NCBI GenBank assembly: GCA_021286765.1
Contig: JAJTBS010000001.1
Location: forward strand, 124,001 to 188,000
DNA: 64,000 nucleotides
From: Holophagaceae bacterium
GTDB taxonomy: Bacteria; Acidobacteriota; Holophagae; Holophagales; Holophagaceae
Direction of reading: 5' to 3'
Part shown: positions 6,401-9,518 of the stretch, piece by piece
Layout of the letters: each line of letters starts with the position of its first letter
Position numbering within the stretch: the first letter of the stretch is position 1
Made by a program: the position numbers and the translations under genes
The notes under the pieces: model-generated
The model's database searches: none
What the model was told of the DNA's origin: nothing
What the model saw: only the letters and a program-made list of their open reading frames with translations

Positions 6401-7477
6401 ATGTCCGCTTCCGGAACCTCACGCCGCGACCTGTTCAAGCTCGGCGCCGCCGCCGCGGCCGGGCTGGTGGCCACCAAGCTCCAGGCGCTGGAAGCCGCGC
6501 CCGAGGCGGCCAAGCCCGCGACCACGACGGCCGCCCCCTACAACCCCGTCACCGCCACGGCCATGCCCACCCGCAACCTGGGCCGCACGGGGCACCTGGT
6601 GGGCCTCTTCAGCCTCGGCGGCCAGGCGGCCATCGAGAAGGCCGACAACGCGGCCGTGGCCATCCCCATCATCGAGCGGGCCCTGGACCTGGGCGTGAAC
6701 TACCTGGACACCTCCGCCCGCTACGGCGGCGAGGCCCGGTGGAGCGAGCAGTACTTCGGGCAGGTCATGAAGCGGCGGCGCAAGGAAGCCTTCCTGGCCA
6801 CCAAGACCCACGACCGCACGGCGGACGGCTCCCTGCGCCTGCTGGAGACCTCCCTGAAGCTGCTGCAGACCGATCACGTGGACCTCTGGCAGCTGCACGC
6901 CATGAGCACGATGGACGATGTGGAGAAGGTCTGCGCCAAGGGCGGGGCGCTCGAAGCGTTCCAGAAGGCCCGCGACCAGAAGCTGGTGCGCTTCCTGGGC
7001 CTCAGCGGCCACACGGACCCCGACATCCTGGCCGAGGCCATCCGCCGCTTCCCCTTCGACTGCGTGCTCATGGCCTTCAACGCCGCCGACACCTGGCACC
7101 TGCCCTTCAAGAAGACCCTGCTGCCCCTGGCCATCGAGAAGGAGATGGGCATCATCGGCATGAAGATCCCCGCCCGGGGCCGCATCCTCGAAGGCGTCCA
7201 GCCCCCGCCGCCCGACAAGCAGCGCGGTACCGCCAAGCACGACCGCCCCGGCACCCTCAGCATGCGGGAGGCCATGCGCTACACCCTGAGCCACCCCGTG
7301 AGCACCGTCATCATCGGCGTGGACAACGTGGCCCAGCTCGAAGAGAACGTGCGCCTCGCCCGGGAGTTCCTGCCCCTGAATGCCGCGCAGCTGGAGACCC
7401 TGGAGCAGAAAGTGAAGCCCGTGTACGGCCAGGCCTCCTGGTATAAGCGGGATGCGCCGGCGAATCCCGAGAAATGA
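6401..7477 (+). CDS. Tat-exported aldo/keto reductase
   Basis: 358 residues. The N-terminus carries a twin-arginine signal (SRRDLFKLGAAAAAGL), so the folded, NADP(H)-loaded enzyme is probably exported to the periplasm. The AKR barrel starts at about residue 48 (MPTRNLGRTG). Catalytic tetrad candidates are Asp in NYLDTSARYGG, Tyr in the same motif, Lys in FLATKTHDR and His in LWQLHAM. It therefore looks catalytically complete; the substrate is unknown. Similar Tat-dependent AKRs are common in Acidobacteriota and Bacteroidota. A strong AGGAGG sits 7 bases before the ATG. Downstream, base composition drops abruptly and the DUF4238 island begins. Confidence 0.88.
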   Translation: MSASGTSRRDLFKLGAAAAAGLVATKLQALEAAPEAAKPATTTAAPYNPVTATAMPTRNLGRTGHLVGLFSLGGQAAIEKADNAAVAIPIIERALDLGVNYLDTSARYGGEARWSEQYFGQVMKRRRKEAFLATKTHDRTADGSLRLLETSLKLLQTDHVDLWQLHAMSTMDDVEKVCAKGGALEAFQKARDQKLVRFLGLSGHTDPDILAEAIRRFPFDCVLMAFNAADTWHLPFKKTLLPLAIEKEMGIIGMKIPARGRILEGVQPPPPDKQRGTAKHDRPGTLSMREAMRYTLSHPVSTVIIGVDNVAQLEENVRLAREFLPLNAAQLETLEQKVKPVYGQASWYKRDAPANPEK

Positions 7478-7490
7478 AAACTGGGATTAG

Positions 7491-7520
7491 CCACAGATGA
7501 ACCCCGATGAACATAGATCA
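7491..7520 (+). repeat. Left 'CCACAGATGAAC' type repeat at island border
   Basis: The segment CCACAGATGAACCCCGATGA plus the following ACATAGATCA belongs to a degenerate family built on CACAGATGAACAC units, seen interspersed in many bacterial genomes. A related copy in opposite orientation lies at 8681-8717, on the other side of the DUF4238 gene. It begins 13 bases after the aldo/keto reductase stop. Confidence 0.5.
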
Positions 7521-7583
7521 AGACGAATGAAGCCTGGGTGGCGGTAGGATGAATCATCCAATCTCATCTTTCCGATTGCATTT

Positions 7584-7649
7584 GTCTGAATCGCTGGCGA
7601 ACCGCTGTGAGCATACGTCACAACGGTTCGCCTAATACTAATGTTAGGT
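7584..7649 (+). other. attC-like recombination site, upstream side of DUF4238 cassette
   Basis: A 9-bp perfect inverted repeat (GGCGAACCG at 7596-7604, CGGTTCGCC at 7624-7632) is extended by TGTGA/TCACA after one mismatch, with a 7-base loop. The 3' flank reads CCTAATACTAATGTTAGGT and ends in GTTAGGT (7643-7649), which fits the integron core GTTRRRY at the spacing seen in classical attC sites. The 5' core is only weakly matched (GTCTGAA at 7584-7590 against RYYYAAC). The next gene starts 7 bases after the core, as in integron cassettes. Identification rests on pattern only. Confidence 0.5.
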
Positions 7650-7655
7650 CGCTAA

Positions 7656-8537
7656 TTGAACGCCTCACGACACCACTTTGTCCCGCAAGGCTACCTACGT
7701 GGCTTTGCGATTGCCGAAGATTCGTCCGGTAGCTTTATTTGGGTTTACGACAAAACTGCTGATAGAGCACCACGAAAAAAATCTGTGAAATCTATTGCTT
7801 GGGCACCCGCTTACTATGCTCAAGAGCATATCGATGGCAGTCCAGATTTGGACACGATCGAAAACGCCCTCGCAAAATCGATCGACAACGAGATCCCGAT
7901 AATCCTCCGACGAATGGCCCCGGAAGTTGGCGTACCCATGACCATCCCAGCCGAGGACAGGGGCAAACTCGCCTACTTCATCGGTCTATCTATGACGAGG
8001 GTCCCCAGCTTTCGGGATGGGATCAACGCGTTACATACCCGTGTCGGGGAGATTTCACTGTCCTTAATGCAAGACCATGACCCTAAACTAAGAGACATTG
8101 CATCGAAATATGGCATCACCTTTGAGGCAAAACCTTGGGTTTCTCTCCACCCTATGTTTGAAATGGCGAAGGCCATCGCATCCGCTGCCCTCCAAAAAAA
8201 TTGGCAATTCTATATTCCTCCGCCCGAGGTCCCATTCGTCACATCCGACAATCCTGTAGTATTCTCCGGGGCTGCTGCCGGGTTGAAAACAATAGGCCCG
8301 GCTCACCCCCAGTCAGAACTACTCCTGCATCTCCGCAAAGACCTTGCTTTGGTCTGCACCCCGCTAACTGGTCACCCGGATTTGCAGGTGTTTCAGCTTC
8401 GTCCATTCGATGCGCGGAAGTTTAATCGCGGTATAGTTCGCGCCGCCCGGCGGCGGGTTTTTGCTGACCACAAATCCGATACATTTGACGAATTTGTGAA
8501 GAAATATGCAGGGCAAGAACAGAAATTGATAGTTTAG
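7656..8537 (+). CDS. DUF4238 family protein (probable mobile cassette gene)
   Basis: 293 residues. The N-terminus ASRHHFVPQGYLRGFA and the later PFVTSDNPVVF are the two hallmark blocks of DUF4238, a family of unknown function found sporadically in bacteria. No signal peptide or membrane segment is seen, so a cytoplasmic protein is expected. The TTG start is chosen because the family motif begins five residues in; no better start exists. Codon use and base composition are visibly more AT-rich than every neighbour (AAA, TTT, ATT codons frequent), which points to recent acquisition. It lies between attC-like sites (7584-7649 and 8547-8671), with its start 7 bases after one core and its stop 10 bases before the other. 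I assign no biochemical function. Confidence 0.8.
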   Translation: MNASRHHFVPQGYLRGFAIAEDSSGSFIWVYDKTADRAPRKKSVKSIAWAPAYYAQEHIDGSPDLDTIENALAKSIDNEIPIILRRMAPEVGVPMTIPAEDRGKLAYFIGLSMTRVPSFRDGINALHTRVGEISLSLMQDHDPKLRDIASKYGITFEAKPWVSLHPMFEMAKAIASAALQKNWQFYIPPPEVPFVTSDNPVVFSGAAAGLKTIGPAHPQSELLLHLRKDLALVCTPLTGHPDLQVFQLRPFDARKFNRGIVRAARRRVFADHKSDTFDEFVKKYAGQEQKLIV

Positions 8538-8546
8538 CCTCACGCA

Positions 8547-8671
8547 ACCTAACACCTCACTCAAGTCGGGCCGAACATGCACGGCCTGCTTTCCTCTCTC
8601 GTGGTACATCCTTCTCGTCTTCGTTCATCATTGCGGCTACAGGTTGGGCCGCTTAGCTTCATTCATTAATC
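8547..8671 (+). other. attC-like recombination site, downstream side of DUF4238 cassette
   Basis: It begins with ACCTAAC (8547-8553, fits RYYYAAC), ten bases after the DUF4238 stop, and continues ACCTCACTCAAGTCGGGCC, close in layout to the 5' half of classical attC sites. An imperfect inverted partner lies at 8640-8654 (CAGGTTGGGCCGCTT), with unpaired extra bases as expected for attC. The 3' core is less clear: GTTGGGC at 8643-8649 fits GTTRRRY, and ATTAATC at 8665-8671 is the other candidate at the outer edge. The length (about 100-125 bases) is within the known range. Confidence 0.5.
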
Positions 8672-8680
8672 CTTAAATCA

Positions 8681-8717
8681 GTGTTCATCAGCTTTGATCG
8701 GTGTTCATCTGTGTTCC
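8681..8717 (-). repeat. Right 'CCACAGATGAAC' type repeat at island border
   Basis: Read on the minus strand it contains ACACAGATGAACACCGATCA and then a further ATGAACAC unit, matching the unit of the left repeat at 7491-7520 in inverted orientation. It overlaps the last codons of the amidase gene, whose C-terminus (QMNTDQS) is written by the repeat. Confidence 0.5.
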
Positions 8718-9518
8718 GTTTTTGATCTCTAACGCCGCGTAAACCTTCACCCGCCGATCCCTGAGCGCCGGGAACCGCTCCCGCCAAGCCCTCAATGAGG
8801 AAAGGTCGATGTCCCCGACCACCAGCCCCTCGGTGGCATCTCCTCTGGCGATGACTTCGCCAAAACAGTCATGAAGGGCGGAGGCGCCGGGATAGTCGAG
8901 GCCCATGGCGTCGCGGCCCGCGCGGTTGACGCCGCAGACGGCCATCTGGTTCTCGATGGCGCGGGCGGCGAGCAGGGTGGACCAGGCGGCGATGCGGCGC
9001 ACGGGCCAGTTGGCGGGTACGAAGACCACCTCGGCGCCCCGCACGGCCAGGCTGCGGAAGGGCTCGGGGAAGCGCAGGTCGTAGCAGATCTGCAGGCCGC
9101 AGGGGATGCCGTCGATCTCGAACAGCGGGCAGTCGTCGCCGCCGCTGTAGTGCTGGTGCTCCTCGCCGTAGGAGAAGGGGTGGAGCTTGCGGTAGGCGGC
9201 CACCAGCGCGCCATCGGGCCCGGTGACGAAGGCGGCGTTCCGCGCCTTGGGCGCGTGGGCCTCCACGCACGATCCCACCAGGTAGAGGCCGAACTCCCGC
9301 GAGAGCGCCGCCACGGCCTCGGTGGTGGGGCCGGGAATCGGCTCCGCGAAGGGCTCGGGCGCCATGGTGAAGCCCAGGGTGAACAGCTCCGGGAACACTG
9401 CCACCCGCGCCCCCGCCTCGGCGGCCTGGCGCGCGAAGCCCCGGGCCTTGGCGAGGTTGGCGGCCGGGTCCTGCCAGACCGTGTCCTGCTGGACGAGGGC
9501 GACGCGGAGGGTGGTCAT
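8688..9518 (-). CDS. Nitrilase-superfamily omega-amidase-like hydrolase
   Basis: 276 residues of the carbon-nitrogen hydrolase fold. The Glu-Lys-Cys triad is visible: Glu in FPELFTLGF near residue 45, Lys in YRKLHPFSYG near 110 and Cys in LQICYDLRFPEPF near 145. The closest pattern is the YafV/NIT2 omega-amidase group, which hydrolyses alpha-ketoglutaramate or alpha-ketosuccinamate to the 2-oxoacid and ammonia (methionine salvage and ketoacid repair, cytoplasm). The C-terminal residues after about 264 (NGTQMNTDQS) come from an interspersed repeat, so the natural C-terminus has been altered by whatever inserted next door. It reads in the same direction as the FAD oxidase upstream (28-base gap), so the two may be co-transcribed. 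Confidence 0.85.
   Translation of the reverse strand: MTTLRVALVQQDTVWQDPAANLAKARGFARQAAEAGARVAVFPELFTLGFTMAPEPFAEPIPGPTTEAVAALSREFGLYLVGSCVEAHAPKARNAAFVTGPDGALVAAYRKLHPFSYGEEHQHYSGGDDCPLFEIDGIPCGLQICYDLRFPEPFRSLAVRGAEVVFVPANWPVRRIAAWSTLLAARAIENQMAVCGVNRAGRDAMGLDYPGASALHDCFGEVIARGDATEGLVVGDIDLSSLRAWRERFPALRDRRVKVYAALEIKNGTQMNTDQS

Follow-up and report, generated by a model that had tools for sequence, protein, structure and literature searches.

A DUF4238 gene cassette at a probable integrase-less attI platform between conserved genes in Geothrix

A single DUF4238 gene of the soil genus Geothrix (Acidobacteriota), with a possible anti-phage role, is carried as a lone integron cassette between an aldo/keto reductase (AKR) gene and an amidase gene. 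The stretch of DNA analysed, 64,000 nucleotides long and called the window throughout, contains an attC site and an attI-like core and encodes no integrase; in related species the position is conserved and its cargo turns over, further orphan attI sites head attC arrays, and arrays within one genome have cassettes in common. We put the probability at about two in three that the cassette occupies a platform with an orphan attI and no integrase gene of its own, and that this platform is loaded in trans. The platform would consist of a short attI-like site, held at a constant position between the Geothrix AKR and amidase genes, into which an integron integrase encoded elsewhere would recombine circular cassettes; loading of this kind should leave different species with different cassettes at one address. 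Integrase-less arrays are usually viewed as dead integrons. If such arrays have a conserved attI of their own and are loaded by a distant integrase, captured genes would have several slots for expression on a chromosome, and the location of integrase-less arrays would be accounted for.

The cassette and its two ends

Table 1. Features of the cassette locus, in window coordinates; a slash within a site marks the crossover.
Feature	Position	Strand	Remarks
Aldo/keto reductase (AKR) gene, left flank	6401..7477	+	PF00248 E 8e-28; syntenic in Geothrix
Inverted repeat left arm CACAGATGAACCCCGATGAACATAGATCAA, bracketing the platform	7492..7521	+	single locus in own genome
Hairpin GGCGAACCG..CGGTTCGCC (the earlier "hairpin site"), not attC	7596..7632	+	z -4.5
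attI-like core GGTTCGCCTAATACTAATG/TTAGGT, inferred crossover 7643/7644	7625..7649	+	best attI-model match in 64 kb
Inserted cassette, inferred crossover to crossover	7644..8665	+	comparison with intact cassettes of own integron
DUF4238 gene	7656..8537	+	293 aa, TTG start; PF14022 E 6e-33
Decayed attC	8547..8671	+	covariance model R1, 57.6 bits, E 1.5e-13
R'' ACCTAAC	8547-8553	+	part of decayed attC
L'' CTCAAGTCGG	8560-8569	+	part of decayed attC
L' CCGCTTAG	8649-8656	+	part of decayed attC
Right-flank amidase gene (carbon-nitrogen hydrolase), transcribed towards AKR	8688..9518	-	PF00795 E 1e-48
Inverted repeat right arm	8696..8713	-	pairs with left arm 7492..7521

An integron cassette carries one attC site, at its 3' end, and the window holds one open reading frame followed by such a site (Table 1), so the cassette is real. 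A covariance model (R1), built from 17 attC sites of the integrase-linked arrays of the family with the window left out, recognises this site as the only real attC in the 64 kb. The first-pass annotation had named a search of this kind as the check on its proposed cassette, and is borne out at the downstream end; the attC-like site that it placed upstream, however, has no match to the model, and the idea of an attC at both ends of the cassette was discarded. The upstream boundary reads G/TTAGGT (7643-7649), in agreement with the G/TTRRRY of a 5' cassette boundary. The gene starts 7 bases past this core and, as had been pointed out, is AT-richer (GC 0.50-0.52) than its surroundings (0.67-0.78, about 70%); an ACCTAAC core does lie just downstream of the stop, but at a distance of 9 bases and not the 10 given earlier.

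The downstream attC is broken at its right end, where ATTAATC stands in place of GTTAGGC. Its bottom strand lacks the combined R''/R' and L''/L' pairing of a cassette site: R''/R' are unpaired and the fold has a z of -1.0, compared with -3.0 for an active attC of the same genome, and the L''/L' subtype (AAG/CTT) is that of the genome's own integron. A decayed copy with so poor a fold makes the gene a cassette by descent and not by present activity. The cassette is probably the innermost one, and would be the only one to remain here; with an attC that is degraded on the crossover side, it is probably locked, in keeping with the earlier view of a degenerate 3' core and, probably, a fixed relic. 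GTTGGGC (8643-8649) was discarded as a candidate for the right core, since it falls within L' in the alignment to the genome's own attC.

The left edge of the cassette, which ends G/TTAGGT, appears to resemble the attI core of the genus, whose integrase-adjacent attI sites end in CGTCCAATTCAAAG/TTAGGC, GTCGTCTAATACTTAG/TTAGAC and similar. A profile trained on twelve integrase-linked sites and applied to the window and the AKR loci ranks the window core first in the 64 kb, at a score that is weak taken alone (7.3 bits, E 0.47), and the core is absent from our whole-genome list of attI matches at E≤10. Its position is that of strong attI matches in sister species (up to 22.5 bits), and the left edge in relatives shares the attI-like core; as the window core is weak, the case for an orphan attI rests on position and relatives. 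Neither the window nor the gaps hold the intI that an attI by definition adjoins. Of the 66-base hairpin site described upstream of the gene, a hairpin stands, which is not an attC and has no match to the covariance model; only in this genome is it strong, and since it is weak in relatives the idea that it is a conserved functional element is not supported.

The platform is bracketed by an inverted repeat. Its presence on both sides of the cassette would fit a gene borne by a transposon or MITE, with the GATGAACACNGAT inverted repeats as the terminal repeats of a small element, a reading that we consider highly improbable: the repeat is found in this genome at the window locus only, and elsewhere it occurs without a cassette, as a short palindrome (loci L063 and L068; genomes G038 and G040). 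Because G038 and G040 have the repeat alone, it is better understood as part of the host's own intergenic DNA where two convergent genes meet, and we rejected it as transposon ends.

The AKR-amidase interval and other orphan attI sites

The AKR-amidase interval was retrieved from 39 sister genomes. Where both genes were found it measures 509 to 10,215 bp; attC matches at E below 1e-5 are present in 14 of the 39 intervals, and no trace of intI was detected in the gap of any of the 39 genomes. Sister species have, in the same gap and behind the attI-like left edge, different cassettes, up to eight of them, and the cargo of the interval includes, judged by eye, small membrane, SnoaL-like, glyoxalase-like, hydrolase-like and PIN-like proteins; in the genome G018 the interval encodes eight unknown proteins. 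Relatives keep the flanks and not the gene, the opposite of the syntenic conservation of gene and flanks together that had been named as evidence against a lone cassette. In species without integron sites the interval contains other variable genes (L054, L059, L063, L068, L075, L084).

The seven best attI-profile matches in 404,567 bp of AKR loci all fall at the left edge and on the same strand, and the six with the AKR end inside the locus lie 99-370 bp beyond the AKR stop. Between species, the 26 columns of the attI core are 70% identical, as against 49% in the 74 columns just upstream. In an alternative reading, the integrase used an ordinary genomic G/TT site and the resemblance to attI is coincidental. 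Such attG insertions are known (cited in PMC12901181 and PMC12444791), they likewise place cassettes away from the integron, and the window core is one base longer than attI. An attG target would be neither attI nor attC; the left edge of the window is attI-like, weakly when taken alone and with better support in relatives. At this edge the sister species give the scores of a true attI, up to the value mentioned above, and a search blind to the locus recovers it in five species. Moreover, the literature portrays attG insertions as scattered (PMC12444791), whereas the platform is a recurrent, fixed address with a conserved attI-like core, and we regard a chance genomic target as improbable.

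The blind search covered whole genomes at E≤10 with a sequence model of attI built from eleven integrase-linked sites only. G018, a genome in one contig of 3.73 Mb, encodes one integrase and has 91 attC sites, about a quarter of them in the integrase array. All seven of its attI matches head attC arrays, six of which have no integrase (L108, L109, L058, L174, L175, L178), and the AKR locus is among the seven. Orphan attI matches in G021, G011 and G035 also head attC sites, with the exception of one weak match. Across 77 genomes of the family the search returned 83 attI matches, 27 linked to an integrase and 56 orphan, 7 of the latter near contig ends of draft assemblies. Besides the AKR locus, three orphan attI sites are syntenic between species, with flanks 89-93% identical. 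Two orthologous orphan platforms have nearby a gene for a tyrosine recombinase that shares about 33% identity with IntI (L105 4974-5735, L108 18547-17777).

Integrases at a distance and cassettes shared between arrays

The absence of an integrase, noted at first pass, is correct for the window but not for the genome, in which contigs C8 and C7 each encode a complete integron integrase; a genome without integrase was accordingly rejected. The attC sites of the C8 integron are 124 bp long, and the genome has 14 attC matches: the C8 array accounts for four and contig C3 for seven, while three stand by themselves, among them that of the window. The second integrase lies at a contig end (G000 C7:169430-170374) and the seven attC sites at the start of C3 (C3:1-4300); the two probably belong to a single integron that the assembly has divided. 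At C7:126872 (L106 6873-6998) there is an isolated attC of low score (49 bits) that has no attI in its vicinity.

In G018, two cassettes of the AKR array recur elsewhere: one in the integrase array, with 97.7% identity over 784 bp, the other in another orphan array, with 98.6% identity over 659 bp; both matches start and stop at attC limits. Exchange mediated by a single integrase would produce this pattern; the shared cassettes could instead represent two independent captures.

The platforms might also be whole integrons that have degraded and lost intI, their arrays fossil and their common position a sign of ancestry only. CALINs are usually interpreted as degraded integrons (PMC9024848), the attC of the window is decayed, and the orphan array L109 of G018 retains a stretch of about 250 bp that is 75% identical to the region upstream of intI. 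Nevertheless, orphan arrays have near-perfect attC sites (135-145 bits) and cassettes 97-98% identical to those that the intI array of that genome carries, the cargo at one address differs between species, and the attI core is more conserved than its surroundings; we judge it unlikely that the arrays are fossils. An origin by loss of intI is compatible with present use in trans.

Platforms loaded in trans may be part of a larger arrangement in Geothrix, a distributed integron, in which a single integrase would load several orphan attI platforms that are dispersed over the chromosome and conserved by vertical descent; we find this as easy to doubt as to believe. In G018 it would comprise six orphan attI platforms and one linked to the integrase. 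If true, many cassettes would be first in line at once, and not one.

An attI core that the platforms appear to share, the same 124-bp attC family and common cassettes are found in sedentary chromosomal integrons, which have attI and intI, but the platform locus is without intI and a chromosome has several platforms. CALINs (at least two attC sites, no intI nearby) resemble these loci as attC-bounded cassettes without an adjoining intI and in their conserved positions, as in Xanthomonas (PMC12444791). The AKR-amidase locus of sister species with several attC sites falls within that definition, whereas the window, with one attC, is below the usual threshold of two, and the arrays at issue differ from CALINs in starting with an attI-like site. 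Cassettes, CALINs, the conserved Xanthomonas positions and, as an idea, mobilisation by a distant integrase are known (PMC12444791, PMC9024848). Standard software seeks attI in class 1 only (PMC9024848), so that platforms with an orphan attI would go unnoticed. Our search of the open literature, with subscription papers outside its scope, returned no relevant paper on orphan attI sites that head arrays, several per chromosome and conserved in position, which is weak evidence of novelty.

The DUF4238 cargo

The cassette gene is the sole DUF4238 gene of the genome, and its product matches PF14022 over the full length of the profile (positions 1-280 of 281). Residues H7, E69, D198 and N257 are conserved, which suggests an enzyme. 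The statement that DUF4238 has no assigned role does not hold for the family: in E. coli, one DUF4238 protein, encoded in a hotspot of P2 prophages, is sufficient for strong resistance to T7 (PMC9122126), and PADLOC includes a DUF4238 model. That system resembles the window gene in belonging to PF14022, in consisting of a single gene and in its variable locus; it differs in that the window gene is cassette-borne in an acidobacterium, and the T7-protective protein is a distant family member relative to the window protein, which the PADLOC model DUF4238-Pers matches weakly and partially (E 1e-4). By analogy within the family, we give an anti-phage function about even odds, in which case the protein would act in its own host as DUF4238 does in E. 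coli.

No relative was returned from the PDB or from phage genomes; the plasmid search gave six distant relatives, and the viral scans few. The predicted structure (pLDDT 47) is too low in confidence for use, and a simple consensus scan gave no promoter upstream of the gene. In G006 and G035 as well, divergent DUF4238 proteins are encoded next to attC sites. In another species, the AKR-amidase interval contains an unrelated DUF4238 gene (23% identity) and has no attC match (L070 / L117, G020). Finally, a DUF4238 gene on a prophage contig lies immediately after a tape-measure-like gene (L171 1749-2771).
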